Shown piece after piece: positions 9,055 to 54,900 of a stretch of DNA of 64,000 nt; within the stretch, counting starts at the first letter, position 1; each line of letters begins with the position of its first letter. The notes beneath the pieces were generated by a model that had not been told where the DNA came from, searched no databases, and was given only the letters and a program-made list of their open reading frames with translations. Origin of the DNA: Bacteriovoracia bacterium (lineage in GTDB: Bacteria; Bdellovibrionota; Bacteriovoracia; Bacteriovoracales; Bacteriovoracaceae). The position numbers and the translations under genes are program-made. The stretch covers positions 310,001-374,000 of the forward strand of contig JAUIIL010000001.1 in NCBI GenBank assembly GCA_030431635.1. The letters are read 5' to 3'.

Positions 9055-9083
9055 TTTTCAGTACTTAGAGATGAAGTTATAAT
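9055..9083 (+). promoter_or_regulatory. Promoter of the 2-oxoglutarate dehydrogenase operon
   Basis: TTTTCA at 9055-9060, a 17-nt spacer and a perfect TATAAT at 9078-9083. The predicted start is about 30 nt before the odhA ATG at 9120, leaving a short leader with only a weak CGGA as ribosome binding site. Confidence 0.6.
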
Positions 9084-9119
9084 AGGTGTAAAGTTAATCA
9101 ATAAAAATCGGATTTCTTT

Positions 9120-25556: not shown

Positions 25557-25603
25557 GTTTATAATTATATACATAAATGATTAAAAAGTGTATAATTATA
25601 AAC
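25557..25603. promoter_or_regulatory. hipBA promoter with two HipB-type operators
   Basis: Two 16-bp near-palindromes, GTTTATAATTATATAC (25557-25572) and GTGTATAATTATAAAC (25588-25603), have centres 31 bp apart, about three helical turns. Site 2 contains a perfect -10 TATAAT (25591-25596); TATACA at 25568-25573 in site 1 serves as -35 with a 17-nt spacer. The hipB ATG at 25607 is only 10 nt beyond the -10, so the mRNA is nearly leaderless. Binding by HipB would block the polymerase directly. Confidence 0.75.
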
Positions 25604-25606
25604 ATT

Positions 25607-25945
25607 ATGAAGACTAAGAAAAAACCGATATTACCACAAACTAAAAAAACCCTAGAGGCGTTTGGGGAAAATATTAAACTTGCCCGCTTGAGAAGAAAGC
25701 TATCTATGGAGCAAGTAGCTGAGCGTGCAGGTATTAGTCGTTCAACTCTCGTGAAAATAGAAAAGGGGGATGATAGCGTCTCAATGGGAAGTTATTTTCA
25801 AGTGTTGTTTGTCATGAGACTCGACAAAGATTTTCTTGATGTTGCTAAAGATGATGTTCTAGGAAGAAAAATCCAAGATGCGGGCCTTGTTACAAAACAA
25901 AGAGCGCCAAAAAGAAGTAGAGATAATGATGTCGAAGAAAAATGA
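25607..25945 (+). CDS. hipB: HipB-like Xre-family antitoxin/repressor
   Basis: 112 residues from ATG 25607. An earlier ATG at 25577 lies inside the promoter between the two operators, so it is unlikely to be in the mRNA. The helix-turn-helix spans about 20-75 (FGENIKLARLRRKLSMEQVAERAGISRSTLVKIEKGDDSVSMGSYFQVLFVM), the typical HTH_3 of HipB-type antitoxins, followed by a basic tail. HipB binds its own operators and neutralises the HipA kinase. Its 3' end overlaps hipA by 20 bases. No Shine-Dalgarno, consistent with a near-leaderless transcript. Confidence 0.85.
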   Translation: MKTKKKPILPQTKKTLEAFGENIKLARLRRKLSMEQVAERAGISRSTLVKIEKGDDSVSMGSYFQVLFVMRLDKDFLDVAKDDVLGRKIQDAGLVTKQRAPKRSRDNDVEEK

Positions 25946-27221
25946 GAGAAAACATATTTACGTATATGCTGATTGGGTAGGGATTGATGGGCCTTTTTTA
26001 ATGGGAGTTCTTTCTGTTGATGCCGTAAGAGGTGAAGAGGTATTCTCTTTTTCTTACGATGAGAGTTGGATGAGAAAAGGTTTAGTACAAGAACTAGATC
26101 CAGATTTACAACTCTATCTAGGAGATCAGTATTTAGAAGAAGGAAAATCAAACTTTGGTATTTTTACTGACTCTTGTCCTGATCGCTGGGGAAGAGTTTT
26201 AATGCAGCGGCGTGAGGCAATACTTGCAAGGAATGAAAGTCGGCCGCCTAGAAAACTATACGAGAGCGATTATCTATTAGGGGTCTATGATGGGAATCGA
26301 ATGGGTGCATTAAGATTTAAATTAGATCCAGATGGAGACTTTCTAGATAGTAAAACAAGATTTTCGACTCCGCCATGGGTGAGATTAAAAGAACTAGAGC
26401 AAGCAAGCTTAAAAATTGAAGAAGATGGAGATGAAATTTCAGAAGAATATATAAAATGGCTTAATATGCTTATTTCTCCGGGCTCTTCTTTGGGAGGGGC
26501 CAGGCCCAAAGCAAGCATTGTCGATGAGAAGGGAAATTTATGGATAGCAAAGTTTCCAAGCCAAGCTGATGCCACGAATGTTGGTGGGTGGGAAATGGTT
26601 GCTTATCAAATAGCTTTGGAAGCCGGTGTAAACATGTCAGAGTCTAAGGCACAGAAATTTAATAGTGATAATTATACGTTCTTAACAAAAAGATTTGATA
26701 GAAAACAAAATGCTCGGATTCATTTTGCTTCAGCAATGACTTGTTTAGGTAAAGTGGATGGAAATGACCATACTTTAGGTGTTAGTTACCTTGATTTAGT
26801 AGAGTTCATAATTCGTAATGGATCAAATGTAGATAGAGATTTAGAAGAACTTTGGAGAAGAATTGTTCTTAATATTTGTATCTCAAATGTGGATGACCAT
26901 TTAAGAAATCATGGTTTTATTCTAGAAGAGACTGGATGGAGGCTCTCTCCTGCTTACGATATTAATCCTATTTCTGATAGTGATGGTTTAAAATTAAATA
27001 TATCTGAACACGATAACTCTCAAGACTTAGATCTTGTCTTGTCAGTTATCGGGCACTTTAGACTGGATGAAACTAAAGCTAACAAGATAATAGGTGAAGT
27101 AAAAGATGCTGTTTTAAAATGGAGAGACTACGCAAATAAACTAGGGATTCCAAGAGAAAAACAAGATTTAATGGCAAGAGCGTTTAGAGTCGTTGAGAAT
27201 AGTCATGTTAAGCAAAAGTAA
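25926..27221 (+). CDS. hipA: HipA-type serine/threonine kinase toxin
   Basis: 431 residues from ATG 25926 (or 25929); the frame runs further upstream inside hipB. Full-length HipA plan: N-terminal subdomain (HIYVYADWVGIDGPFLMGVLSVD), then GSSLGGARPKASI near 184-195, which holds the autophosphorylated-loop Ser and phosphate-binding residues, the lysine strand LWIAKFPS, FLTKRFDR, the catalytic NICISNVDDHLRNHGF near 317-328 and the metal-binding AYDINP near 343. E. coli HipA phosphorylates glutamyl-tRNA synthetase and causes growth arrest; the target here is unknown. All catalytic motifs look intact, so the toxin should be active. Coupled to hipB by overlap. Confidence 0.92.
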   Translation: MMSKKNERKHIYVYADWVGIDGPFLMGVLSVDAVRGEEVFSFSYDESWMRKGLVQELDPDLQLYLGDQYLEEGKSNFGIFTDSCPDRWGRVLMQRREAILARNESRPPRKLYESDYLLGVYDGNRMGALRFKLDPDGDFLDSKTRFSTPPWVRLKELEQASLKIEEDGDEISEEYIKWLNMLISPGSSLGGARPKASIVDEKGNLWIAKFPSQADATNVGGWEMVAYQIALEAGVNMSESKAQKFNSDNYTFLTKRFDRKQNARIHFASAMTCLGKVDGNDHTLGVSYLDLVEFIIRNGSNVDRDLEELWRRIVLNICISNVDDHLRNHGFILEETGWRLSPAYDINPISDSDGLKLNISEHDNSQDLDLVLSVIGHFRLDETKANKIIGEVKDAVLKWRDYANKLGIPREKQDLMARAFRVVENSHVKQK

Positions 27222-27469: not shown

Positions 27470-27527
27470 TCAAAAAGTTTATATTTTTTAAGTTCAGCAA
27501 AAACTCAGAATATCCGTATAAGTGTCT

Positions 27528-28130
27528 ATGAAAGATAAGATATTGGTTATCGATGATGATCCGGCCATTGTCAGTTTACTTCAGGATTTCTTAGAAGATG
27601 AATTTGATATTGAGAAGGCCTACTGCTCTGAAGAAGCCTTATCGACTTTAATGCAAAAAAATCAATATAGTGCCATACTCACTGATATTAATTTAGGTGG
27701 GTTAAGCGGTCTTAAGTTACTTGAAATTCTCAAAATGAGACCAGGCCCAACTCCTATTATATTAATGTCAGCTGATGTAAAAAGAGAAGATCTTTTTAAT
27801 GCGATTCATATTGGTGCTTTTGATGTGATTGAAAAACCTTTTGAGTTAGAAAAACTTTACTACACCTTAGGAAAAGCAGTTCACTACTATAGAGAGCAAC
27901 TTCAAAAAGAGAGCCTTTCGATCAAATGCAAGGCCTTAATAAGAGAGGCGCAAGAGTTAGTGAAGGCCTATAAAAAAAGACTTTTGAAGGCCGAGAATAT
28001 TCTCATGCACACCAAGAGTTTAACTTTAGAAAATCAGACCGAAGTAAATCAATTTTTAAATACAATAAAAGAAGTCATCGAGCATGAAGATATTTTTCAT
28101 AAGGCCCTAGAAGAATTTAAAGAGAGTTAA
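27528..28130 (+). CDS. Response regulator with helical C-terminal extension
   Basis: 200 residues from ATG 27528; the GTG two codons earlier overlaps a -10-like TATAAG (27517-27522). An intact receiver domain is visible: acidic IDDDP (9-11), phosphoacceptor Asp53 in ILTDINLGGLSG, Ser81 in ILMSAD and Lys103 in IEKPFE. Residues 115-200 form a charged, probably coiled-coil helix region (YYREQLQKESLSIKCKALIREAQELVKAYKKRLLKAENI), not a DNA-binding domain, so output is likely through protein contacts. It ends two bases from the convergent LysR gene. No kinase is adjacent. Confidence 0.85.
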   Translation: MKDKILVIDDDPAIVSLLQDFLEDEFDIEKAYCSEEALSTLMQKNQYSAILTDINLGGLSGLKLLEILKMRPGPTPIILMSADVKREDLFNAIHIGAFDVIEKPFELEKLYYTLGKAVHYYREQLQKESLSIKCKALIREAQELVKAYKKRLLKAENILMHTKSLTLENQTEVNQFLNTIKEVIEHEDIFHKALEEFKES

Positions 28131-28132
28131 GT

Positions 28133-29098
28133 TTATTTGAGCTTTTCTTCTGGAATATTAGCAATATCAATTAAGAGATCCTGATCATTATAGTGAAATG
28201 GCTTATTTTTTAACTTAAGGCACTCTTTTAGTTTTTGAATGGAAATCATATTAGAAGAGAGTTCCCTCCAGGAAGCATAAAGCTTGATCTTAAATTTTTG
28301 CTGATCAAGAGTGAAGATTTTTAATCTACTCTCCCAAAATGCATCAGGTTGGTGAAAGGGGAAAAGAGTAATACATCTTCCACGCTCGGCCAAGTGGATA
28401 CTGAATTCTCTATGGTCTGTATAGATAAACTCCTCTGGAAAAATAGAGTGTTCTCCCAGGTAGTCTAGAACAAGCTTATTTAAAGAGTGGTCCCAATTGC
28501 TCAGAGAAAGAGGAATCGTATTTAACAGATCCTCTTTCTTTTTGAAACGTGAGAAAATTTCAGGAGACGTTGCAAGTCCCAAGGTATAACTTTCAATACA
28601 TTCATTTTGAGTTTTTCGACTTTTAATAGGTTCAAGAGAAATCACCCAATCATACTCTCCTTTATCAAGGCCGATGGTGAGTTTTTGCGCATTGGTCTCT
28701 CTAATCGTATGAACTGTCCCATAAGGAGCAAAGAGATCGTTATATTCAGAGACAAACTGAAGTCCGAGAGATTCAACTAAAGACTCTTGAATTCCAATTT
28801 TAACAGCATATCCACCGACTGAGTGTTTTGAAATATTATCGATAATGCGTCTTCCATTTTCAAAAATTTCTCGGCAAGAAAAAAAGAGCTCCTGCCCATC
28901 GCTGGTGAGAACAAACTTACGGGATTTCTTTTGAAAGAGAGTCAGATTAAAACGTGCCTCTAATTTCTTAATATGCTCGCTTAAGGTGGGGCTTGATAAA
29001 CCTAAAGTTTTTGCTGCCTCCTTGATAGATTGCCTTCTTCCTACTTCATAGAAGTAGTAGAGCTGGTTCCAGTTTATATCTTTAAGGGCAGAAATCAT
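28133..29098 (-). CDS. LysR-family transcriptional regulator (NhaR-like)
   Basis: 321 residues. The winged helix-turn-helix is at about 8-68 (WNQLYYFYEVGRRQSIKEAAKTLGLSSPTLSEHIKKLEARFNLTLFQKKSRKFVLTSDGQEL). The opening LNWNQLYYF-type start and the effector domain recall NhaR and related regulators; the coinducer is unknown. It is divergent from the GNAT-racemase-deacetylase-symporter cluster, with 90 bp between the starts, so it is the likely regulator of that cluster. The intergenic region has a GGTTTAACC palindrome near 29109-29117. Confidence 0.9.
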   Translation of the reverse strand: MISALKDINWNQLYYFYEVGRRQSIKEAAKTLGLSSPTLSEHIKKLEARFNLTLFQKKSRKFVLTSDGQELFFSCREIFENGRRIIDNISKHSVGGYAVKIGIQESLVESLGLQFVSEYNDLFAPYGTVHTIRETNAQKLTIGLDKGEYDWVISLEPIKSRKTQNECIESYTLGLATSPEIFSRFKKKEDLLNTIPLSLSNWDHSLNKLVLDYLGEHSIFPEEFIYTDHREFSIHLAERGRCITLFPFHQPDAFWESRLKIFTLDQQKFKIKLYASWRELSSNMISIQKLKECLKLKNKPFHYNDQDLLIDIANIPEEKLK

Positions 29099-29188
29099 AA
29101 CTATATATTAGGTTTAACCAAACATACTGTCAAATTTATTGAGTATAATTGATTTACCCTTTATTTATATCATTAAACGGGGTTATCT
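29099..29188. promoter_or_regulatory. Divergent control region between LysR gene and racemase cluster
   Basis: 90 bp. The palindrome GGTTTAACC at 29109-29117 lies close to the LysR start, a usual place for a LysR autoregulatory site, and TATAAT at 29145-29150 could be the -10 for the rightward operon. I see no convincing -35 for it, which would fit an activator-dependent promoter. Confidence 0.4.
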
Positions 29189-29623
29189 ATGAAAATAAAA
29201 AGAATTGATGGTCAATATCTTAACTATGAACAAAAAAGAGAAATTGGTCAGTTTCTCTATGAACACTTAGATGAGTTTCGGGATTCTTTAGATGAGATTT
29301 GTCACTGTCTAGACTATGTGACAAACGATCCAAAAGGTGGAGACGTTTTTCTCTCGATGAATGAAAATGATGAACTCACTGGGTGTGTAGTTTTGAATAA
29401 AACAGGAATGGGTCGTTATATTCCTGAGAATATTCTGGTTTATGTGGCCGTTGACAAAAAATACAGGGGGCAAGGAGTGGGGAAGAAGTTAGTTGCAGAG
29501 GCCTTAAAAAATATTGAAGGCTCTGTTGCTCTTCATGTTGAACCTCACAACCCTGCAATTCATTTGTATGAGAAACTTGGTTTTACAAACAAATATCTAG
29601 AAATGCGATATACGAGAGATTAG
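29189..29623 (+). CDS. GNAT-family N-acetyltransferase
   Basis: 144 residues. The acetyl-CoA binding core is clear: VYVAVDKKYRGQGVGKKLVAEAL (motif A, with the R/QxxGxG/A loop RGQGVG), followed by ALHVEPHNPAIHLYEKLGFTNKYLEMRY (motif B). It transfers acetyl groups to an amine; from its position ahead of two racemases and a deacetylase, the substrate is probably an amino acid or related amine, which is inference. First gene of the rightward cluster; the next gene begins one base after its stop. Confidence 0.9.
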   Translation: MKIKRIDGQYLNYEQKREIGQFLYEHLDEFRDSLDEICHCLDYVTNDPKGGDVFLSMNENDELTGCVVLNKTGMGRYIPENILVYVAVDKKYRGQGVGKKLVAEALKNIEGSVALHVEPHNPAIHLYEKLGFTNKYLEMRYTRD

Positions 29624-29624
29624 T

Positions 29625-30695
29625 ATGGCCTTTATCAAGCTTTATAAAGAGAGGCTAAGAAGAAACTATAATTACCTAGAGAATTTCTTTGAAAAAAAAG
29701 GAACTCAATGGGGAATAGTGACTAAACTTTTGTGTGGTAATGAGAGTTTTCTCTCTGAAGTTATCAAACTTGGGATTAATGAAGTTCATGATTCGAGAGT
29801 ATCTAATCTTAAAAAAATTAAAAATCTTGCTCCTGAAATTCAAACTGTTTATATCAAACCACCTGCTAAAAGAAGTATTAAAAGTATTATCCAGTACGCT
29901 GATGTCAGCATGAACACTGAGCTCTCAACAATTAAACTTCTCTCTGAAGAGGCCAAAAGACAAAACAAAATACATAAGATTGTCATTATGGTTGAACTTG
30001 GAGATTTAAGAGAAGGAGTGATGGGGGATGAATTAGTTGATTTTTATGGAGAGGTTTTTAATCTTGATAATATTGAAATCACTGCACTGGGGGCCAATTT
30101 AAACTGTCTTAATGGTGTTCTGCCCTCGCAAGATAAACTTGCCCAATTATGTTTATATAAAAGTATTATTGAGTTGAAGTTTAATAAAAAAATTCCTTTT
30201 ATTTCTGGAGGCTCTTCAGTCACGATTCCTCTCCTGTTAAGAAAGCAAATGCCTAAAGCCGTTAATCACCTAAGAATAGGCGAGACTCTGTATTTTGGAG
30301 TCGATTTATTTAAAAAGAAAACTATCAATGGAATGCAGAGTAATGTTTTTGAACTTTGTGCTGAAATTATAGAGTTAACTCAAAAACCTATTGTCCCGTT
30401 TGGAGAGTTTGATGAGAACCCAAGTGGTGAGACATATGAGATTAACGAAAATGATTACGGCAAAAGATCACATCGGGCCATTGTTGATGTAGGTTTACTC
30501 GATATCTCTCCAGAGTTTCTCTCTCCTCAAGATGCTAATATCCAGGTCGTTGGTGCTAGTTCTGATATGCTAGTTGTCGATCTGGGGGATTCTCATTCTC
30601 AATACAAGATAGGTGATACTATTTCTTTTTCACTTAAATATATGGGAGCTTTAAGTCTTATTAACTCTAAGTATATAGATAAGGTTGTGGTTTAA
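29625..30695 (+). CDS. PLP-dependent racemase, ornithine racemase-like
   Basis: 356 residues. Fold-type III PLP enzyme of the alanine/ornithine racemase family: the PLP lysine is Lys34 in GIVTKLLCGN, and the family-typical GANLNCLNGVLPSQDKLAQL, FISGGSSVTIPLL and NHLRIGETLYFGVD (phosphate and Arg contacts) follow. Orr-type enzymes interconvert L- and D-ornithine, others act on Ala or Lys, so the exact substrate is unsure. It sits between a GNAT gene and a canonical alanine racemase. Its stop at 30693-30695 lies just before the AAAAAGGAG site of alr. Confidence 0.85.
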   Translation: MAFIKLYKERLRRNYNYLENFFEKKGTQWGIVTKLLCGNESFLSEVIKLGINEVHDSRVSNLKKIKNLAPEIQTVYIKPPAKRSIKSIIQYADVSMNTELSTIKLLSEEAKRQNKIHKIVIMVELGDLREGVMGDELVDFYGEVFNLDNIEITALGANLNCLNGVLPSQDKLAQLCLYKSIIELKFNKKIPFISGGSSVTIPLLLRKQMPKAVNHLRIGETLYFGVDLFKKKTINGMQSNVFELCAEIIELTQKPIVPFGEFDENPSGETYEINENDYGKRSHRAIVDVGLLDISPEFLSPQDANIQVVGASSDMLVVDLGDSHSQYKIGDTISFSLKYMGALSLINSKYIDKVVV

Positions 30696-30708
30696 AAAGG
30701 AGTGCCTT

Positions 30709-31860
30709 ATTTTTGAATCTTCACATATTGAATTGAGTAAAAGTGCGTTGAGAAATAATATTAAGTTTCTCAGGAAGACTGTGGCCAAAAATAGACGACT
30801 CTCTGTTGTTGTGAAAGGGAATGCTTATGGCCATGGGATTCAAGATATCGTGCCCATGCTTGAAGATGAGGGGATTGATCATTTTTGTGTTTTTTCGGCC
30901 CAAGAGGCCTATGAAGTTTTTAAAGTTGCTTCCAAGCATTGCAGTATTGTCATTATGGGAGATATGACTGATGAAGCCATTGAATGGGCCATAAGTGAGG
31001 GGATTGAGTTTTATGTTTTTGATTTTAATCGCTTAAAAAAAGCTTATTCAATTGCTAAGGAGAAAAAGAAGAAGGCCCTTATTCATTTGGAAGTAGAAAC
31101 AGGAATGAATAGAACAGGCTTTGATATGAATGAATACGTAGAATTAGCAGAATATCTAAAAGAAAAAGATGGTTTCTTTAGAATAATAGGGCTTTGTACC
31201 CATTTTGCTGGAGCAGAGAGTGTTTCAAATTATATCAGAATTAAAAATCAAATAAAAAAATTTAAAAAGGCCCAAGAGATTTTAGTCTCTTTTGGAATTA
31301 AAGTAGAACTCACCCATGCTGCTTGTTCAGCAGCGAGCTTGCGATACCCACAAGTTCGCTTTGATATGGTGAGAATTGGTATTTTAACTTATGGTTTTTG
31401 GCCTTCCCAGGAAGTTTATATTGAATATCTTACTAAGAAAAAAACCCATAAAAATCCTCTTGAGAGAGTTATTAGTTGGAAAAGTTTTGTCATGAATATC
31501 AAAAAAGTAAAGTTGGGGGAGTACATTGGTTATGGAACTAGTTTTCAGGCCAATGAGAATAAAACCTTGGCCCTTATTCCGGTTGGTTATGAAACAGGGT
31601 TTTCAAGAAATTTAAGTAATCAAGGGAAAGTTCTTATTCGCGGTCAAACAGTTCCCGTAGTAGGAATTGTGAATATGAATCTTTGCAGTGTCGATATTAC
31701 TCGGATCCAAAATGTCAAAGAAGGAGATGAAGTTGTTATTATCGGCAAACAAGGAGAGAATGAGGCCACAGTTTCTTCTTTTAGTGATATGAGTAATTTA
31801 TTAAACTATGAACTCTTAACGAGACTTCCAACTGATATTCCAAGACAAATAGTATTATGA
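30709..31860 (+). CDS. alr: Alanine racemase, probable ATT start
   Basis: 383 residues if it starts at ATT 30709, six bases after a strong AAAAAGGAG (30694-30702). The only upstream alternative in frame is TTG 30685, which overlaps the previous gene and has no spaced binding site; no ATG, GTG or TTG lies in a suitable place downstream. Alr motifs: SHIELSKSALRNNIKFL, PLP lysine Lys36 in VVVKGNAYGHG, HLEVETGMNRTGF, the Arg-bearing VRFDMVRIGILTYG and the catalytic Tyr in IGYGTSF near 273. It racemises L/D-Ala, for peptidoglycan synthesis or D-Ala catabolism. Its stop overlaps the next start (ATGA). Confidence 0.85.
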   Translation: MFESSHIELSKSALRNNIKFLRKTVAKNRRLSVVVKGNAYGHGIQDIVPMLEDEGIDHFCVFSAQEAYEVFKVASKHCSIVIMGDMTDEAIEWAISEGIEFYVFDFNRLKKAYSIAKEKKKKALIHLEVETGMNRTGFDMNEYVELAEYLKEKDGFFRIIGLCTHFAGAESVSNYIRIKNQIKKFKKAQEILVSFGIKVELTHAACSAASLRYPQVRFDMVRIGILTYGFWPSQEVYIEYLTKKKTHKNPLERVISWKSFVMNIKKVKLGEYIGYGTSFQANENKTLALIPVGYETGFSRNLSNQGKVLIRGQTVPVVGIVNMNLCSVDITRIQNVKEGDEVVIIGKQGENEATVSSFSDMSNLLNYELLTRLPTDIPRQIVL

Positions 31861-32861
31861 TTATCTATAACCCTCGTTTTATTCCTTATCTTCTTCAATT
31901 TGGGATTGAGGTTCCTCATCTAAAGTCTAAATATGATAAAATTGTAACTGAAATAACAAAGGATTATTCTCAAGATGTCTTTTATCAAGGCCAATTCGAA
32001 GAAATAAAAAAAGAAGATCTTCTTCTTGCTCATGACGAGAGTTTTGTAAGAGAACTTCTCTCCCACCCAGAAGAAGAGATTATAAAGGCCTACGAACTTA
32101 TCAAAACAAATGGACAATATCATCGTTATAATCCTTCAAAGGCGACAAGAAGTTTGCACGAGCTTGCTCAAGTTTTAGTTCAAAGTACCAGTGGTACATA
32201 TCAAAGTTTAGTTTTGGCCCAGGAGAAAGGCTTCTCTTATTTTTTAGGTGGTGGGCAACACCATGCCATGAGTTTTGGAGGAAGAGGTTTCTGTCTGGTA
32301 AACGATATTGTTATTACCCTAAGAAAGTTTCTTTCCATAAATAAGAAACTAAAAAAAGCTTGGGTTATTGATGTTGATGCTCATAAGGGATGTGGGACAG
32401 CGCAGATAACTCAAAATGATGAAAAAATTCTCACTCTTAGTATTCATATGGCCGATGGTTGGCCGCTAGATAGCACAAAGTATGATGGGAAAGGAGAACT
32501 TTATCCATGGTTTATAGAGAGTAATATTGATATCCCCATTCAATCAGGCCAAGAGCACAGATATATAAAAGCACTCGAAGAAGGAGTTGAAAAACTTTTT
32601 GCAGAAGAGAAGAAGCCAGATATTGTTTTAATTGTTAATGGCAGTGACCCCTATGAATTTGATACTCTTCCTAGTGCTGATCTCATCAAACTAACAAAAG
32701 AAGAACTTTTCAGAAGAGATGTTTTTCTTTACGACTATTTTAAGAAAAAAAATATTCCTCAGGCCTATGTCGCTTCAGGTGGCTATGGAGAAAAGGTTTG
32801 GGAAATTCATTATCAGTTTATTCATTATGCTCTTGGGAGAGAAGGTCATGGCCACAATTGA
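31857..32861 (+). CDS. Histone deacetylase-family hydrolase (acetylpolyamine/AcuC type)
   Basis: 334 residues. Zinc-dependent deacetylase fold: HDESFVRELL, GGGQHHAMSFGGRGFCLVND with active-site His135/His136, WVIDVDAHKGCGT with Zn ligands Asp174 and His176, and third ligand Asp264 in NGSDPYEFD. Bacterial members remove acetyl groups from polyamines, acetyl-lysine or other acylated amines. With a GNAT acetyltransferase in the same operon, it may act on acetylated amino acids or polyamines; this is inference. Overlaps alr by four bases (ATGA) and the symporter by 14 bases. Confidence 0.85.
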   Translation: MIIYNPRFIPYLLQFGIEVPHLKSKYDKIVTEITKDYSQDVFYQGQFEEIKKEDLLLAHDESFVRELLSHPEEEIIKAYELIKTNGQYHRYNPSKATRSLHELAQVLVQSTSGTYQSLVLAQEKGFSYFLGGGQHHAMSFGGRGFCLVNDIVITLRKFLSINKKLKKAWVIDVDAHKGCGTAQITQNDEKILTLSIHMADGWPLDSTKYDGKGELYPWFIESNIDIPIQSGQEHRYIKALEEGVEKLFAEEKKPDIVLIVNGSDPYEFDTLPSADLIKLTKEELFRRDVFLYDYFKKKNIPQAYVASGGYGEKVWEIHYQFIHYALGREGHGHN

Positions 32862-34272
32862 TTTGATTATTTTAGCTATCTATACCATTTTCATGCTTGG
32901 AGTTGGTTTCTATTTCATGAAAAAAAATACCACGATGGATGATTACTATGTTGGTGGCCGAGAAATGGGAAGTTATCACGTTGGGCTCTCAGTTGTTGCC
33001 ACTGACGTTGGAGGAGGGTTCTCGATAGGACTAGGAGGACTTGGTTTTATGATGGGCCTATCTGGCTCTTGGATGTTATTTACTGGTCTTATTGGTGCAT
33101 GGTTAAGCGCCTCCTATCTTATTCCTAAAGTAAAAAAATTAGAAGAAAAGAAAACCTTTTATACTTTTGCTCAACTTTTTGATCATTTTTATGGACCTCG
33201 TGTGGCCCTCGTTGCAGCCGTTGTTTCCATTATTGGCTATGTGGGTTTTACAAGCTCTCAACTACTAGCAGGAGCAAAGCTTGCTAGTGCGAGCTTTGAT
33301 GGAGTGAATCTCGAAACAGCTCTTGTTATTATGGGAGCTTTGGCCGTTATCTATACATCTATAGGAGGGATAAAAGCTGTCATTTATACCGATACCTTTC
33401 AATGGATAATACTGATGGTGGGACTTTTTTTCATTGGTGTTCCTATGACCTACTTTAAACTAGGAGGGTGGGATGTTATATCCAAACTACTTCCTCGAGA
33501 GTTTTTCTCCCTTACAAATTTAACTTGGATTCAATTTTTCAATTGGATGGTGACTATTATTCCAATTTGGTTTGTTGGTATGACTCTCTATCAAAGAATT
33601 TATGCATGCCCTGATGAAAAAACAGCGAAGAAAGCTTGGCATATAGCAGCTTTTTTAGAATATCCTTTAATGGCCTTTATGGGAGTGATACTTGGAATGT
33701 TTTCCAAAGTGGCCCTTTTAAGTGGTGTTTTCTCTGAAATAGGTGCGCAAAATTTTGATCCAGAGCTTGGTCTTCCACTGCTTATTAAATATATTTTTCC
33801 TGTTGGTTTAATGGGCCTTATTTTAGCTTCTTATTTATCGGCCGTCTTATCAACTGCTGACAGTTGTTTGATGGCCGCATCAGTGAGTGTCATTAACGAT
33901 GTTCTTGCAAAACTTTTCCTCAAGAAAAAAGAACATCAGTCTTCATTAGTAATAGGCCAATTAGTGACTTTAGTGATTGGAGGTCTCTCTCTCTTATTGG
34001 CCCTTCATATGGAGAGCGTTTTAAACTTGATGCTCTCCTCCTATAGTTTTATGGTTTCAGGTCTATTAGTTCCAATTATTGCGGCTTTCTTTTTTCACTC
34101 ACAAAATTCACTGGCTGCACTGCTTTCAATTATTTCGGGTGGGGGATTGACACTTTTTTTACAATTTTCAAACACTGAACTTCCCTATGGTCTTGACGCT
34201 AATATTTTCGGGATTAGCTTATCTCTAGTTGTTTTCTTCGTTACTCAAAAGATTAATCAAAGAGATAAATAG
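32848..34272 (+). CDS. Sodium:solute symporter (SSS family)
   Basis: 474 residues from ATG 32848 (GGAG eight bases upstream), overlapping the deacetylase end; the frame runs further upstream but inside that gene. About 13 membrane segments with SSS hallmarks: MDDYYVGGREMG after helix 1, the Na+-site segment VVATDVGGGFSIGLGG, the FTSSQLLAGAKL helix, GGIKAVIYTDTFQW and YLSAVLSTADSCLMAAS. SSS members import amino acids, sugars or organic acids with Na+. The operon suggests an amino acid or related amine. The 3' end overlaps the convergent M20 gene by 48 bp, an unusually long overlap. Confidence 0.92.
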   Translation: MATIDLIILAIYTIFMLGVGFYFMKKNTTMDDYYVGGREMGSYHVGLSVVATDVGGGFSIGLGGLGFMMGLSGSWMLFTGLIGAWLSASYLIPKVKKLEEKKTFYTFAQLFDHFYGPRVALVAAVVSIIGYVGFTSSQLLAGAKLASASFDGVNLETALVIMGALAVIYTSIGGIKAVIYTDTFQWIILMVGLFFIGVPMTYFKLGGWDVISKLLPREFFSLTNLTWIQFFNWMVTIIPIWFVGMTLYQRIYACPDEKTAKKAWHIAAFLEYPLMAFMGVILGMFSKVALLSGVFSEIGAQNFDPELGLPLLIKYIFPVGLMGLILASYLSAVLSTADSCLMAASVSVINDVLAKLFLKKKEHQSSLVIGQLVTLVIGGLSLLLALHMESVLNLMLSSYSFMVSGLLVPIIAAFFFHSQNSLAALLSIISGGGLTLFLQFSNTELPYGLDANIFGISLSLVVFFVTQKINQRDK

Positions 34273-35352
34273 TTTGTTCCCGTGCTCAATTAGTTCATCA
34301 GGGAAATCATAGCCCGAGTCATGGAGAGGTTTTCTTTCAACTCCTGAACCAAGAACAAAAAAGAGTCCTGGCCATTTATTAAGAAAATGACCAAAGTCCT
34401 CAGACCATGGAAAAGCTTTATCCACTTGATGAACAATAAATCCTCTTTGTTGTAAAAGAGGAATTATTTTTTGAGATAAATTAATAGGGTTAGCTGTCAC
34501 AGGAAATTCTTCAACCCACTCCTTCGTTATTTCAAACTGAATGAAGTGTTCAAAAAAAGAAGAATAGGTTTGTTTTAAGTTTTCAAAGGCACTTTGCTCA
34601 TCTGCTCTTAAAGTTAAACAAAGATGAGCTTGACCGGGGTTTATCCCAAAATTCTCTTCTCCTAAGGAGAGATGGGTCAGAGTGACCATTTGAAAAAAAG
34701 AAGAATCTTGTTCGTTTGTTTTCTTGATCAAAGAAAGTAGTTTTTCAATAACTTTAATAGGGGATTTAAAATTAATCTCTCCTGCATGAGAAGATTCACC
34801 TTGAATTTTAACCTTGAGCCCGGTTGAGGCACAGGCCATAGTCTTCTCTTTGATAAATAAGTGAGAAAGCTCTCTTGATGGATAGTTATGAAGGGCAAAA
34901 ACATAATCTAACGAGAGGTTTTGAAATAAGGAAGAATTAATGACTTCCTTGGCCCCTTGCCCTGTCTCTTCTGCGTGTTGAAAAAGAAGATAGACGTTGG
35001 GTCTTTCTTTATTTTTTTTAAGGAAGGGAGCAAGTGAGCAGAGAATGCTCATATGCCCATCATGGCCACACATATGAGAAATTCCTGATTTATTGGACTG
35101 ATATTTTTTTTCTTGCTCTTGTATGGGGAGAGCATCAAGTTCACATCGAAAAAGAATATTTCGATGATTTATTTGACCATTAAATTTAAATAACACAGAT
35201 GTCTTGCTAAACTGATGATAAACTTCATCAGGTTCATAAGAGGTTAAAAAATCAGTTATTATTTTTGCTGTTTGAACTTCCTGAGAGGAGAGTTCAGGAT
35301 TTTGATGAAGAAGATGTCTGAGTTCAACAAAAGGGCGAAGAGAATAATTCAC
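34225..35352 (-). CDS. M20-family metal-dependent amidohydrolase
   Basis: 375 residues, the length of the amidohydrolase/IAA-amino-acid hydrolase branch of M20. Motifs: LRHLLHQNPELSSQE at the N-terminus, RCELDALPI, the metal and Cys motif MCGHDGHMSIL (Cys95, His97), the acid pair HAEETGQGA (Glu128/129), ALHNYPS, and a dimerisation domain at about 180-290 with SSHAGE. It cleaves N-acyl amino acids or similar amides. The start is GTG 35352 within the stop of the SH3 gene (GTGA overlap). It faces the symporter and racemase genes, supporting a shared amino-acid salvage role. Confidence 0.9.
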   Translation of the reverse strand: MNYSLRPFVELRHLLHQNPELSSQEVQTAKIITDFLTSYEPDEVYHQFSKTSVLFKFNGQINHRNILFRCELDALPIQEQEKKYQSNKSGISHMCGHDGHMSILCSLAPFLKKNKERPNVYLLFQHAEETGQGAKEVINSSLFQNLSLDYVFALHNYPSRELSHLFIKEKTMACASTGLKVKIQGESSHAGEINFKSPIKVIEKLLSLIKKTNEQDSSFFQMVTLTHLSLGEENFGINPGQAHLCLTLRADEQSAFENLKQTYSSFFEHFIQFEITKEWVEEFPVTANPINLSQKIIPLLQQRGFIVHQVDKAFPWSEDFGHFLNKWPGLFFVLGSGVERKPLHDSGYDFPDELIEHGNKLFISLINLLSNEENN

Positions 35353-35870
35353 AGCTCAATGGCCTTTTTAGAGTAAATAGAAGGCCATATAGACTCACTA
35401 TAAACCCAAAAAACTCGACCTCTAGAATCGAGAACTTTATTGCAGTTAAAATCAATTTTAAGGACTTTAAAACTTTCAAGATAATACGCTTGTTTTTTCT
35501 GCTTAAGACTTCGTGTTTTAGGACAAACATTTCCAAGTTCTTGTTGATGAGTAAGAGTGAAGCATTTAATATTCTTCTCTATTAAAGGAGAGTAGATCCA
35601 GCCCTTTTCGTGCAAGTAAGTTTCTACCTTACTCCAGTTACCCTCTTGGGCAATGAGTTTTAAGGGTGTGTATTTTTTTAGTTTCGCAATAATGGGAGAG
35701 TTTGTCGTCGGACGAGATCTTAAATGAGTATAGTATTTTTTCACACAAGCAAAGTCTGCTGAGTAAGTATATTGACTTAAAAAAAAGAGGATAAGAAAAC
35801 TAGCTACAAGCTTCAATATTATCTTCTGTAATAAGCTGAACTTTTTTGAGCTCTTGGATAACGTATTCAA
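35349..35870 (-). CDS. Exported SH3-like domain protein
   Basis: 173 residues. A basic N-terminus and a hydrophobic stretch (KLVASFLILFFLSQYTYSA) form a signal peptide. It is followed by an SH3b-type domain (CVKKYYTHLRSRPTTNSPIIAKLKKYTPLKLIAQEGNWSKVETYLHEKGWIYSPLI), which in bacteria binds cell-wall peptides. The C-terminal 60 residues have four Cys and no recognised fold. The annotated start lies 71 bases inside the PqqD-like gene; a TTG at about residue 19 is a weaker alternative. It shares its last four bases with the M20 gene. Confidence 0.75.
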   Translation of the reverse strand: MNTLSKSSKKFSLLQKIILKLVASFLILFFLSQYTYSADFACVKKYYTHLRSRPTTNSPIIAKLKKYTPLKLIAQEGNWSKVETYLHEKGWIYSPLIEKNIKCFTLTHQQELGNVCPKTRSLKQKKQAYYLESFKVLKIDFNCNKVLDSRGRVFWVYSESIWPSIYSKKAIEL

Positions 35871-36066
35871 CTACCGCAGTGGCCGCCTGACTATCTATTT
35901 CTCCCACTTGAGAGATTTTATCAATTATCTCTGATTTATTTCTCGTCCCATCAGCTAACTTCCAAATATAAGCACTTGTTTGGTTGATTTTAAAGTTTTC
36001 ACCCTCTTGGTTTTCAAGATAGAACTCATTGTCTTTGATATGGTTGATTCTTCCTAATTTTTTCAT
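35800..36066 (-). CDS. PqqD-like (RRE-type) small protein
   Basis: 88 residues from ATG 36066, which has AGGAGGT four bases upstream; the frame runs 28 codons further without a binding site. The pattern NHIKDNEFYLENQEGENFKINQTSAYIWKLADGTRNKSEIIDKI is that of the PqqD family, a small winged fold that binds peptide precursors in RiPP pathways (RRE) but also occurs alone in many bacteria. No radical-SAM enzyme or precursor peptide is next to it here. It heads an operon with an SH3-domain protein and an M20 hydrolase. Confidence 0.75.
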   Translation of the reverse strand: MKKLGRINHIKDNEFYLENQEGENFKINQTSAYIWKLADGTRNKSEIIDKISQVGEIDSQAATAVVEYVIQELKKVQLITEDNIEACS

Positions 36067-36196
36067 CAATACCTCCTGCTTTAACAGGTTAACTCCATGA
36101 GTAATTTCACTCAAAAGGAACTTGTCTAAATTAGGTTTATCCGAAGACACTTAAGAGTTATTTTGTGAGTAAGATAATCCATGAGAGCTTTTATGT

Positions 36197-37369
36197 ATGA
36201 TTCAAGGAAGAGTTGTTATTCTATTTTTTCTTTTCTCTCTTTTTTATGGTTGCTCCAGTATTTCCAGGAGTAAAAAAAATTTGGTCGTTTCTGAACATAA
36301 AGATGTTCAAAAATGGATTGATTATTTTACTCAAAAAGATAAAGAAAGGTTTGAGAGATTCATTAATAGGGGACAGTATTACAGAGATGCAACTATTGCT
36401 GTTCTAAGAAATTATAACCTCCCAGATGAGCTTTTTTATCTTCCCCTCATTGAAAGTGGTTATGTTTTGCGAGCAAAGTCTCACGCAGGTGCAGTAGGCC
36501 CATGGCAATTTATCGCTCCCACTGCTAAACGATACGGACTAAAAATAAACTATTATGTTGATGAAAGAAGAGATCCTATTCTAAGTGCGACAGCAGCCGC
36601 CAAATATCTTCGATCTCTTTTCCAAGTTTTCCAATCTTGGGAGTTGGCCCTGGCTGCCTATAATTGTGGGGAGAGAAGAGTGCTCTCGGCTATTATGAGA
36701 GGAAAGACAAGAAACTTTTGGGAACTATCTCGAAAAAAACTCTTACCTTATGAAACAAGAAACTACGTTCCAAAGCTTATGGCCGCAATCGAAGTTGCTA
36801 GAAATCTTGCTGATTATCAAATAAAGCTTAAAAAAACAGACCCAATCCCCGTTCTTGTTAAGCATGATTTTCCAGGAGGAGTAAAACTGAAAGATATCAG
36901 TAAGGAAACAAACATTCCAGTAAGACTTTTAATGCGCTATAATCCAACTCTCTATCGAGGAATGACCGCATTAGAAAGAAAGTTTAAAGGTTTATTTCTT
37001 CCTGTTGATTATTCTCAAGATATCACTCTTGTTGCTCAAAAGTTAGGTAAACAAAGAAGAAGATTAGCATCTTTCTCGGCCAGGAAACACCACAGGGTCA
37101 AAAGAGGAGAGTCACTTTATTTCATCTCAAGAAAATATAATTTAAGAGTTAACTATCTAAAAAAACTCAATGGACTTTTTCATAGTAAAATCTTTCCAGG
37201 TCAAAAAATTAATATCACAGCTGGAGTTAGAAGGTTTCACTACAAAGTAAAAAAAGGGGACAGCCTTACAAAAATTGCAAGGCTTTATCGTAAATCAAGG
37301 AGATGGATTAAAAGAAAAAACGCTCTGGCCTCAAACCGAATTTATGTTGGCCAAGTTTTAAAAATCTAG
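36197..37369 (+). CDS. MltD-like lytic transglycosylase lipoprotein with two LysM domains
   Basis: 390 residues. A lipoprotein signal ends in LFYGC (Cys19). The SLT/MltD domain spans about 60-215: LPLIESGY with catalytic Glu86, HAGAVGPWQFIAPTAKRYGL, VDERRDPILSATAAAKYLRSL, WELALAAYNCGERRV and LPYETRNYVPKLMAA. Two LysM repeats follow (HRVKRGESLYFISRKYNLRVNYLKKLN... and YKVKKGDSLTKIARLYRK...). It should cleave peptidoglycan glycan strands in the periplasm, at its own or a prey wall. A paralogue lies at 47119. The end shares CTAG with the convergent gene. Confidence 0.93.
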   Translation: MIQGRVVILFFLFSLFYGCSSISRSKKNLVVSEHKDVQKWIDYFTQKDKERFERFINRGQYYRDATIAVLRNYNLPDELFYLPLIESGYVLRAKSHAGAVGPWQFIAPTAKRYGLKINYYVDERRDPILSATAAAKYLRSLFQVFQSWELALAAYNCGERRVLSAIMRGKTRNFWELSRKKLLPYETRNYVPKLMAAIEVARNLADYQIKLKKTDPIPVLVKHDFPGGVKLKDISKETNIPVRLLMRYNPTLYRGMTALERKFKGLFLPVDYSQDITLVAQKLGKQRRRLASFSARKHHRVKRGESLYFISRKYNLRVNYLKKLNGLFHSKIFPGQKINITAGVRRFHYKVKKGDSLTKIARLYRKSRRWIKRKNALASNRIYVGQVLKI

Positions 37370-38130: not shown

Positions 38131-39102
38131 TTAAAGAATCCATTTTTTCGTATTTCTTACAGCTCTTAACAGGAAGTCGAGCATAAAGACATGCCTTCGC
38201 ATTTGACGCCTAAAGCGATGCTCTTTAACAGGATTAAAAAGCCCAAAAATAGAGAATATTTGAAAAGGGTTTTTCTTTACCCAACGCCAAGAGCCAATTT
38301 CAAGTGTGAGTGGAATAAAAACGGTGGGTTTTTCTCTTTTTTGATTTTCTTCAAGTAGGTAATCCCACAAATCTCCATGAGTGACATAGTTCTTTGTTTG
38401 AGGCTCAATTTTATAAATATGATTAGGATAAGTGTCCTCAAAAAGTTTTTGTAGGCGTACAAATTCATTATAATAAGGAAATTTTTCCTTTTTAGTCTTG
38501 GCCCATGGATACCAAATTTGATCTTGCACTCCAAAACCAGAGTGAAAATCCATTGAAATACAAACTTCAGAAGAGAAGACTTCTTCTTTAAAAAAATCAA
38601 CAACAGTCTGGGTCTCAAGTTCAAGTTTATCTTTTTCACCTCTATGCCAGGCGAGTTTTTTAGTCAGACGATGGCCAGATAAAAGCCAGGTTGTTTCATC
38701 GGCATCAGCTTCAACAGGAGCATTTCTCATCAGATCAACTCCATTTGGGTTGCACCTGGTGTGATAAGCTGTTCCTCCTGGATTCACGATTGGGATGGCG
38801 ATGAGCCTTCTATTTTTAAACCATTTTTTCAGGTCCTCATCCCACTGAAGAGACTGAGCAATTGTTTTTAGGTAAGAAATAATAACCTGAGTTCCTATTC
38901 TTTCAAGGCCGTGAACTCCTCCCACCAAAACAACTGTTGGAAGTGTTCTATCTTCAGACCCAAAAATAAGAGCATCGACTGGGAAGCGTTCAAATTCACA
39001 ATCAATATAATTTAATGTTCTTTTTTTAATCATCTCTGGGTTAGAAGCAGCGATAGAATCTATATCTTTTAACTCAGGTAATAAGGTGTATAGCTTACTC
39101 AT
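38131..39102 (-). CDS. M14-like zinc carboxypeptidase / deacylase
   Basis: 323 residues with no signal peptide. M14-type metal site: GGVHGLERIG (His64, Glu67), NPNGVDLMRN (equivalent of the GVDLNRN Asn-Arg pair), SMDFHSGFG (His187, third ligand) and catalytic-type Glu268 in TLEIGSW. These fit the M14 / succinylglutamate desuccinylase-aspartoacylase superfamily, probably a DUF2817-like member. Substrate unknown; cytoplasmic cleavage of peptides, perhaps cell-wall derived, or N-acyl amino acids would suit the neighbourhood. It is a stand-alone gene. Confidence 0.82.
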   Translation of the reverse strand: MSKLYTLLPELKDIDSIAASNPEMIKKRTLNYIDCEFERFPVDALIFGSEDRTLPTVVLVGGVHGLERIGTQVIISYLKTIAQSLQWDEDLKKWFKNRRLIAIPIVNPGGTAYHTRCNPNGVDLMRNAPVEADADETTWLLSGHRLTKKLAWHRGEKDKLELETQTVVDFFKEEVFSSEVCISMDFHSGFGVQDQIWYPWAKTKKEKFPYYNEFVRLQKLFEDTYPNHIYKIEPQTKNYVTHGDLWDYLLEENQKREKPTVFIPLTLEIGSWRWVKKNPFQIFSIFGLFNPVKEHRFRRQMRRHVFMLDFLLRAVRNTKKWIL

Positions 39103-51924: not shown

Positions 51925-54900
51925 TTAGTCAAAATGCTTGTTACATTTAGCTTGTTTTAAAACTTGCTTAAACTTCTTATACTCATTGAGTGCTGTTGAA
52001 GGTGAAGATAAAAATCTCAATCCCATTATTTTTTGGGCTTGAGTCATTAAGTAGTTTTTGTCAGCAATATGGGCCTTCATTCCAACGAGTGTGGCAAATA
52101 ACTTTTGGAAAAAAAGATATTCTGGCCTTAAAGAAATTCCCTTAAGTTCAACTTTCTCCATTGATTTAGAAAAAACTTCAATCGGGTCATTGCTTATAAG
52201 AGATTGTCTTTCTATCTCCTCCCTAAGGAGTTGAGATTGTTCTTCACTATCTATGATGAGGTACTCTTTTGCCATTTCAACAGCTTCTTCGATTTTTTTG
52301 AACTTAATGGCGCCAATAATAGACATGAAGCCACGAACTTTCTGTGGTTCAATAATAACTGATTGACCTAGATCGATATTGACAAGGTTGCCCTTCAAAA
52401 CGAGTAATCTTTTTTTGGCCAACTGGTTTTCTTCATGTGGATCGATATCTAGAATAACGTTTCCTCCTAGCTTTTCTGAAGGCTGAATGAAGGAAGTAAG
52501 CTGATTTAAAATCTCGTTGACTACGGCCTTAGCATAACTTTGTTTACTCCATCCTAAAAGTGATTTTTCTGGCAGCTGTCCCCAAGAATCTGCTTTAATA
52601 AATTCTTCGGCCATGACTCCATCAAATTGCCAGCCCTCAAGAGGAACTGGGACCTGAACATTAACTTTATTCCCAAAGATTTTAACTAAAAGCGGTCTAT
52701 CCATAATGGCATTATTATGGGCAATGTTCATTTCAAACTCTTTCTTAAATTGCATTTCTTCAGTAATAATTCTCTCTACTTCCTCTCTGAGAGCAGGTAA
52801 ATTTTCAATACGAAGAGTTGGATCTTGCATAATTAACTCAAGGGCCTGTTTAAGAAGTTCAAACTCCCTAAGAGTTTTCTCATAAATATACTCTCTGGCC
52901 AGTTTAATAACGATAACTCTTCCATCTTTCAAAGTTGCTGAATAGGCCAGTTTCAATGAGCCTGAGCCCAACTCATGGTTTAATGTCTTAATTTGATTAA
53001 ATTTGTCCTGAGGAAGTCTTTGTGAAATCCAATTCATCGCTCGTATTTTTTCTACTTCTTGGGCCTGCCCTTTAAATTTTTCTAAAACATCTTGATATTC
53101 TTGAGGAAGTTGAAAACCGTGACTCGCTATAATCTGAGCAAGTTTCGCAGCTGCAACTCCTCCATTCTCAACAAGGATTTTTAAAACTTGTGGGCCTTTT
53201 AAGTCTTGGCTTCCTTGGGCCAATAGTCCAGAGAACATACGAGAAATTTCTGATTCGTTGAGAACTTGAAAATAGATTTTTAAAACACTTCTAAGGTAGG
53301 GAGGCATGTCTTCGTCTGATAAGAGAATACGATTAGCTAGAATTTCTATTGCTTCCTTACTACTATTAACACCACTTTCTCCTACAAAAAGACCCCGAAA
53401 GACAAGGGCCTTCTCGAGAGTGTGGGTTTCTTGAAAAAACTCTTTGATTTCAGATAAAGTGAAGTAGTAGCCATTTTCTCTCATTGTCTTTTTTCTTTTA
53501 TCTTTACCAAAAAAAAGTTTTTTTACTTTTTCTTCTAAATCTTTTTCAAGTTTATCATCAAAGTTAGCTAAGTAGAGAGAGAAATGAACTCTCTCTACTG
53601 GAGTAAGTTTCCCTACATATTCTTCTAATATCTCTCCAAAGGCCTTGGAAATTTTATGATAAGGACTTTCCGTATTATAGGATTTGTACTTTTCAATAGC
53701 TTTAAGTTGCTCGAATGTGCTTTTGCGCGACTTTATATGCTCTTCAAGTAAACCATCTCGATGCTTACTTCCTTCAGGAAAAACTGCTGCTATTTCACCT
53801 GCTGGAGGATTCTCTAGTTTTTGATTCGCTTCATGTAAATCAAGAAGGTACTCTAGAGCAGTCTCTTTCGGGATTCCCATTTTGCCTGCTCTTTTAGCGA
53901 CATGATCCTCCCAAGCATTCTCTATTATGTGCCAAGCATTGATTAATCCAGTGGAATTTTTCAGATCGTCTAAAACTTCTTTGGTCCAGACAGCTTCAGC
54001 TTCTTTATAGGCCTTGTAGAGTTTGATATATAATCTGGCTTTCGTGATAAAATTCATTTTCACTTTTCCATATTTTTTTAAAACATATTGATAGGTTTCA
54101 AGTCTTTTATTGAGTGAGCGAATATTTTTTGTGAGCTCAATAACTTTCTTTCTTTTATGATGAGAGGATTTAATATAATCGGAAATTTCATTGTCAATAT
54201 TTTGTGACCATGGAGTTTGTCTTCTTAGATCTTGCAAGAAGTTAACTTTTTTGACGTTACCAACCTTCTTTTTCTGGGAGAGAGTTTTTGTATAAACCAA
54301 ACTAGAAAAATTTTTGATCTTTTGTGTGACGTATTGATTTAGCTTTGAATTTTCAATTTTCTTAAAAGCTTCATTCAGAATAATTAATTTATCAAGCTCT
54401 TTGAGAAGGCGTGTCGCTTTCCCAAAGCTATTCTGATAAGCGTTAGCTCTATTATAAAGATATTTACTAAAGAAGAGGATAATTTTGTTTATATTTTGAT
54501 TAGGCAAATCTTTTTGCCCATACCAAGCATCAAATTGAGTAATTTTAGCTACCAGCGAGTCAAAAAAGTATTCTCTGTATTTGACTCCAGTAATATTCAT
54601 CAATGTTTTTAAATTAGCTTTAAGGTAATTTTGAGAAACCTCGGGCCCAATTAAACGACCGTGAAGAAATAAAGAGTATAAAGCAGTATATTCCTGCATT
54701 TGCTCTTTTGTTTCTACTTTTTGAAGTGAATTCATAAGATAAGCATAAAAAAGCCTGATTTGTTCTTCCGATTTATCATTGCCAATGATTTGAGTGGATC
54801 TATTTTTTGCGAAAGTATATTCTTTTGAACTTTCAAGGAAGTTGGAAAGAATAAGAATGAGTGAATTGACAGGGTCTTTCTCTTCTATCATTTTTTTATA

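Follow-up and report, generated by a model that had tools for sequence, protein, structure and literature searches.

The window analysed here, 64,000 nucleotides of a Bacteriovoracia bacterium (contig JAUIIL010000001.1, positions 310,001 to 374,000), carries five plus-strand genes that overlap or abut. They encode a GNAT N-acetyltransferase (GNAT; 144 amino acids, 29189-29623, Acetyltransf_7 at 6.5e-16), a fold III pyridoxal phosphate (PLP) racemase resembling Orr (ORR; 356 amino acids, 29625-30695, Ala_racemase_N at 3.6e-11), a second racemase of the Alr family (ALR; 30685-31860, also an Ala_racemase_N match), a Zn deacylase of the HDAC family (HDAC; 334 amino acids, 31857-32861, Hist_deacetyl at 1.3e-38) and a PutP/PanF-like Na+ symporter of the SSS family (SSS; 32848-34272, SSF at 1.1e-45). 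An M20D-type amidohydrolase (M20; 34225-35352, Peptidase_M20) faces them from the minus strand, and a LysR-family regulator is divergent from them. At the level of superfamilies the assignments are clear. In our opinion it is close to certain that these genes belong to a real recurring unit, which we call the cassette. We further propose, tentatively and at somewhat below an even chance, that the cassette has spread horizontally and that it serves to import an amino acid and to invert its stereochemistry via an acetylated intermediate. The initial annotation had described the same genes in the same arrangement and had taken them for a functional unit; indeed, all of them are present, and the set is conserved and co-inherited.

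Recurrence of the gene set

A scan of GTDB genomes returned at least 576 relatives of ORR. The best 80 were kept, which makes them a best-match and hence biased sample, and together with Persicobacter they give 81 loci outside the window's family. By record titles, 73 of the 80 are Bacteroidota-type, 6 Balneolota and 1 Ignavibacteria. Genes at the loci were counted with tblastn at chosen bit-score thresholds, and loci without a match may hold diverged genes below them. On this count GNAT is found at 75 of the 81 loci, ALR at 52, SSS at 48 and M20 at 42, while HDAC and LysR are found at none; for the 62 loci flanked on either side by 4.5 kb or more the figures are GNAT 61, SSS 41, ALR 38 and M20 34. 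The initial annotation had suggested looking for this gene order in other genomes, and the combination does recur, outside the family most commonly as SSS-GNAT-M20-ALR-ORR (22 of the 62 loci with full flanks). Flavobacterium, Fulvivirga and other Bacteroidota have this order, as does a plasmid of Persicobacter. All detected genes lie on one strand in 90 of the 91 loci other than the window (10 from the family and 81 from outside). GNAT is a near-invariant partner of ORR: it accompanies ORR in 85 of these 91 loci, on the same strand every time.

Within the window's family ORR and GNAT occur in 11 of 129 genomes (the window and 10 others), with GNAT present at all 11 ORR loci; the ORR relatives in the 10 other genomes are 53-63% identical. 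Across the phylum, 15 of 368 genomes match ORR at E <= 1e-15, four of them only via distant homologues at 29-35%. Cassette-type ALR (49-55%) is found in 7 of the 129 family genomes and SSS (53-59%) in 6, in each case entirely within the 11 ORR-GNAT genomes; two alr matches at 33-34% (in G021 and G017) passed E 1e-50 and were excluded from the ALR count. M20 occurs in 4 of the 129, three of them with ORR-GNAT and the fourth, G019, with two distant Orr homologues. Hypergeometric values for co-occurrence with ORR-GNAT, which ignore relatedness, are 3e-9 for ALR, 8e-8 for SSS, 0.002 for M20 and 0.02 for HDAC. That the genes are neighbours by chance, without joint function, is scarcely credible to us. 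It is true that every one of them comes from a common superfamily, but the idea is contradicted by their conservation in unrelated lineages and by their co-inheritance.

The arrangements in the family vary. One genome (G112) has the order GNAT-ORR-SSS-ALR-HDAC. Four others (G076, G113, G119 and G137) have GNAT-ORR-SSS with ALR elsewhere in the genome, where it is directly followed by HDAC in all of them but G137. In G149 an HDAC-M20 pair is divergent from GNAT-ORR and ALR is convergent; G097 has an M20 of a different subfamily, then GNAT-ORR, then a LysR gene; and in G114, G123 and G148 only GNAT-ORR is present in the stretch seen. Given these arrangements, we regard GNAT-ORR as the core of the cassette and ALR-HDAC as a second pair. 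Scattering of the genes among relatives, the finding which the initial annotation had considered fatal to its proposal, is thus seen in part: the GNAT-ORR core is absent from 118 of the 129 family genomes, and HDAC is common and, in 20 neighbourhoods fetched from other family genomes, unlinked, yet where cassette genes are present they are mostly linked.

An ORR tree of 50 rows (43 of the 87 cassette ORRs and 7 other homologues) places the 11 family sequences in one clade (98/89) amid rows from Bacteroidota, Balneolota and Ignavibacteria, and a long branch (100/100) splits the GNAT-linked ORRs from the 7 others. This would fit a single transfer, perhaps into the window's family, followed by patchy retention.

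One Balneolales cassette (L128) has a peptidase M23 gene at 9080-9703, between ORR and M20. Related genes were seen in 5 loci, on the same strand in 4 of them.

The two racemases

Judged by its motifs, ORR is a distinct subfamily of Orr-like racemases, marked by GLLD and SSDM. It belongs to the same superfamily as Orr, but the window's ORR misses the curated cut-off of NF040742 (329.6 against 480 bits; L109 scores 321.8 and L131 328.0), while the Orr of Ilyobacter, to which it is 37.5% identical, scores 520.3. GRQD and SSDH are common to the five non-cassette homologues aligned, except that L199 has GRQD with TSDH. The cassette ORRs have instead G-x-L-D, in 87 of 87 (with LL in 76), and SSDM, in 82 of 87. 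Hence ornithine is not safely inherited as the substrate. The PLP-lysine motif VxKxxCG is kept in all 87. The AlphaFold2 model of ORR (pLDDT 88.6; 35 rows picked from a larger set) has the architecture of fold III PLP racemases, with the PLP-binding lysine, and matches them across residues 1-356, with a tie between broad-specificity, lysine and alanine racemases (Z 25-26, root-mean-square deviation 3.0-3.6, 318-333 residues aligned). A sequence search for a solved relative of ORR found none.

ALR follows ORR after 13 bp if it starts from ATT 30709 and overlaps it if it starts from TTG 30685. GNAT and ORR are 1 bp apart. We think that the rare start codon ATT 30709 is probably the true one, since a good Shine-Dalgarno-like AAAAAGGAG lies just 5' of it (both within 30691-30712) and the consensus Met of ALR homologues aligns to this codon. 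Gene callers would pick TTG 30685 or shorten ALR.

ALR passes TIGR00492 (297 bits, cut-off 168). Its residues are numbered, and their roles assigned, as in Alr. The PLP lysine, Lys39, is present in 49 of 50 cassette ALRs (the remaining one has a gap), and Arg136, His166, the catalytic Tyr265 and Met312 are present in all 50. The cassette ALRs differ from Alr in having Glu at the position of the carbamylated Lys129 and Asn at the position of Asp313, both in 50 of 50. ORR and ALR thus appear to be active racemases whose specificity has changed. Given that both are divergent subfamilies, D-Ala and ornithine are not supported as their literal substrates.

The possibility that ALR is the only, housekeeping alanine racemase of its genome is ruled out. 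The window genome has five Ala_racemase_N matches, and a second alr-type gene, at G000:C2:126545, carries the usual Lys129/Asp313 residues.

One could also imagine that these are independent enzymes with separate substrates, serving the scavenging or detoxification of assorted D-amino acids and forming no single pathway. ALR would then act on D-Ala-like and ORR on basic D-amino acids, GNAT would be a detoxifier and the hydrolases would serve for N-acyl amino acids. The structural closeness of ORR to broad-specificity racemases and the varying gene content around GNAT-ORR agree with such a scheme. Still, we consider it unlikely, because the conserved order, the single strand in nearly all loci and the strict co-occurrence suggest one pathway.

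Deacetylases and the proposed pathway

HDAC, which overlaps ALR by 4 bp, carries the motifs GGGQHH and SGGY. Its His-His and Asp-His-Asp Zn ligands and the Tyr of GGY align with those of solved deacylases (9gz5), and the solved cluster-5b VcHdaH (9gkv, 9gky) is among its best matches. In place of the RPP motif of robust deacetylases it has LGGGQHH. In the portion of PMC11532494 that concerns these motifs, GGG-HH and SGGY are tied to long-chain deacylases and RPP to robust deacetylases. HDAC thus resembles the Zn deacylases of cluster 5 (VcHdaH, human HDAC11) described there, but it differs from them in sitting in an amino-acid cassette, after ALR.

The HDAC family is present in 77 of the 129 family genomes, including 10 of the 11 with ORR-GNAT. 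In 20 loci fetched from other family genomes it is unlinked and lies in unrelated neighbourhoods, which were uninformative as to its role. Because it is so common there and so variably placed, we take HDAC to be native to the window's family. It is found at 3 of the 11 family ORR loci (the window, L081 and L083), and its absence from all 81 outside loci rules it out as part of the transferred cassette. In a tree of 26 family HDACs most branches are unresolved, and the three cassette HDACs do not group together. A scan of the window genome contigs with this single protein found no relative.

Of the 7 family genomes with cassette ALR, 5 have HDAC as the very next gene after it (3 genera; G113 and G119 are near-copies), and M20 directly precedes ALR in 42 of 42 M20 loci outside the family. 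It seems that in the window's family HDAC took the place of the usual deacetylase, M20, beside ALR. That two unrelated amide hydrolases share one slot suggests a shared job, namely the cleavage of a small amide, and mainly for this reason a metabolite seems to us a likelier target of acetylation than a protein. The window holds both enzymes. Its M20 passes TIGR01891 (169 bits, cut-off 153.75), with YxeP as the best solved match, and is in this respect like the M20D amidohydrolases (DoeB2, YxeP, N-acyl-amino-acid hydrolases), but it falls far under the equivalog cut-off for DoeB2 (NF038260; 171.8 against 550 bits).

The main rival in kind is a reversible switch by protein acetylation, in which GNAT would acetylate a cassette enzyme, perhaps one of the racemases, on a lysine and HDAC would take the group off again. 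Such a switch would be similar to acuABC, where GNAT and HDAC-family genes also stand together; in Bacillus, AcuA and AcuC acetylate and deacetylate AcsA. GNAT and HDAC indeed share one operon in the window, and HDACs are lysine deacylases. Further, protein acetyltransferases, RimI and NatC included, are among the tied matches of the predicted structure of GNAT (AlphaFold2, pLDDT 93.4; 32 rows picked from a larger set), although the same fold search left dozens of acetyltransferases tied at Z 15-17 and gave no substrate signal. In our opinion a protein switch is nevertheless quite improbable. GNAT and HDAC are not conserved together, given the 3 of 11 and 0 of 81 loci above; M20, which is not a protein deacetylase family, occupies the place of HDAC; and this HDAC family is often found in genomes that lack the cassette. 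An acetyl-CoA synthetase was not seen beside the window operon.

For the metabolite pathway we infer the reactions, their D-to-L direction, the substrate and the position of the acetyl group as follows. SSS would import the amino acid with Na+, and GNAT would acetylate one amine. The PLP racemases ORR and ALR would then invert the alpha-carbon bearing the free amine, and a deacetylase (in Bacteroidota M20; in the window's family M20, HDAC or both) would remove the acetyl group, after which the L-form would enter metabolism. Racemisation combined with acetylation and deacetylation and with Na+-coupled uptake, as proposed initially, stays the best reading. The same cannot be said of prey peptidoglycan as the source: the modal cassette is found in Bacteroidota, and the transglycosylase and M14 genes near the window operon are connected with it by proximity only.

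A fold III PLP racemase requires a free alpha-amine. Therefore another amine would have to carry the acetyl group, which makes a diamino acid the most economical substrate, and with modest confidence we favour one of the ornithine, lysine, diaminobutyrate or diaminopimelate type. Side-chain acetylation would leave the alpha-amine free and would fit the habit of HDACs of cleaving side-chain amides. We also favour a diamino acid because ORR homologues sit in basic-amino-acid contexts: the one at L199 is one gene from a gene that matches the solved D-ornithine/D-lysine decarboxylase over all 465 residues, the one on a Roseateles plasmid (L096:6968-8752) is fused to an arginase-family domain, and Orr itself (L198) is among them. 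The fusion gene on the Roseateles plasmid adjoins genes for a D-amino acid dehydrogenase and RidA.

Alternatively, the cassette could be biosynthetic. ORR would racemise an L-amino acid and GNAT would trap the N-acetyl-D-amino acid as a solute, signal or storage compound, with M20/HDAC, ALR and SSS recycling it. PLP chemistry allows alpha-acetylation after racemisation, and the sub-modules GNAT-ORR and deacetylase-ALR do occur separately: most Pontibacter loci have SSS-GNAT-ORR, and L103 has M20-ALR a few genes away. We give this alternative a rather small chance, as the importer and the divergent LysR point to uptake and no biosynthetic partner gene recurs across lineages in the same-strand neighbourhood.

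A link to arginine biosynthesis was rejected. Runs of arg genes close to ORR are peculiar to Pontibacter, and ArgD-like matches elsewhere are generic aminotransferases (29-40%), with the exception of L112, where a 37% ArgC-like gene is present as well.

Several points weigh against stereo-inversion through an acetylated intermediate. The 11 ORR-GNAT genomes represent 6 genera, with 5 genomes in one genus, a relatedness that the hypergeometric values ignore. The substrate is conjectured from PLP chemistry and genomic context, arginine genes form a run beside ORR in Pontibacter only, and the GRQD and SSDH motifs by which the aligned Orr-type sequences are marked are missing from ORR. HDAC carries the long-chain rather than the robust deacetylase motifs, and the window's M20, on the opposite strand, is only 31-39% identical to the M20s of Bacteroidota cassettes. 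At 12 of 67 loci with full flanks GNAT-ORR has no deacetylase, ALR or SSS in view, so deacetylation may lie outside the core. Finally, an operon that combines two racemases with enzymes for both acetylation and deacetylation could amount to a futile cycle.

A bolder proposal, which we hold with considerable doubt, is that of a widespread undescribed pathway in which the acetylated amine of a diamino acid serves as a handle for two altered PLP racemases, a native HDAC-fold enzyme having been recruited in the place of M20 as a free-amino-acid deacetylase. If true, it would be a second, chemically different route for stereo-inversion of D-amino acids or diamino acids beside DgcN-DgcA, held by common Bacteroidota (Flavobacterium, Fulvivirga), in which the turnover of D-amino acids is of ecological importance. 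Two racemase subfamilies, which would otherwise probably be labelled alanine or ornithine racemase, would acquire a function, and a bacterial HDAC would be seen to act on a small amino acid. Culturable Flavobacterium has the modal five-gene operon, hence the proposal is directly testable. No description of this gene set was found in the open-access literature searched, subscription papers being outside that scope.

Related systems, regulation and neighbouring genes

The cassette would work like D-glutamate catabolism by DgcN-DgcA, but it is not a member of that system. According to the portions of PMC10845958 and PMC11747546 that outline it, the route consists of an N-acetyltransferase, a racemase and deacylation to the L-amino acid. 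The likeness lies in the pairing of an N-acetyltransferase with a racemase, followed by deacetylation to an L-amino acid. The differences are that the window has a small GNAT and no DUF1611/DgcN, and that the cassette has, in addition, a further racemase, a symporter and HDAC/M20. Moreover, the window's racemase has the PLP alanine-racemase fold, while DgcA is of enolase type. Neither the acetyltransferase nor the racemase thus appears to be homologous to its Dgc counterpart. Given the need for a free alpha-amine, ORR is unlikely to act on an N-alpha-acetyl substrate in the manner of DgcA.

At L090, L091 and L095 a DUF1611/DgcN-like gene stands directly ahead of a more distant homologue of ORR, from which it appears that the pairing of acetyltransferase and racemase arose with two unrelated acetyltransferases. 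With L200, where DUF1611 is assigned by record annotation, the loci with DUF1611 directly 5' of a PLP Orr-like racemase come from two other genomes in the phylum and from two Vibrio plasmids; where scored, DUF1611 of these loci is below the equivalog cut-off. It is possible that such pairs are a PLP version of the DgcN-DgcA pathway.

LysR (28133-29098, minus strand; HTH_1 at 4e-17, LysR_substrate at 7e-9) is a candidate regulator of the cassette. A relative 43% identical to it adjoins ORR in G097 (L080), while LysR was found at none of the 81 outside loci; at some of these MarR lies upstream in its place. The 90 bp between the divergent LysR and GNAT genes (29099-29188) are a promoter region by position only, and an inverted repeat of at least 8 was not found in them. 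Promoter-like matches in 27500-36300 are at chance level (27 against 26.4 in shuffles), and the same scan gave 9 terminator-like sites where 5.2 were expected.

At the downstream end of the operon, SSS overlaps HDAC by 14 bp when started from ATG 32848, which agrees with the family; the listed start, 32719, falls within HDAC. The convergent SSS and M20 overlap by 48 bp at their 3' ends. M20 also overlaps an SH3-domain gene (35349-35870), which itself overlaps a PqqD-like gene (35800-36150), all on the minus strand (34225-36150). The three may form a single transcript, which would tie M20 to genes that were not encountered in other cassettes.

Near the cassette lie an MltD-like transglycosylase gene with LysM repeats (36197-37369) and an M14 carboxypeptidase gene weakly like MpaA (38131-39102). 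On the other side a helix-turn-helix gene overlaps a HipA-type gene, forming a HipBA-like toxin-antitoxin pair (25577-27221). Further along the window, at 51925-57954, is a gene for a protein of 2009 amino acids which combines, unusually, matches to M48 peptidase and the ABC1 atypical kinase.

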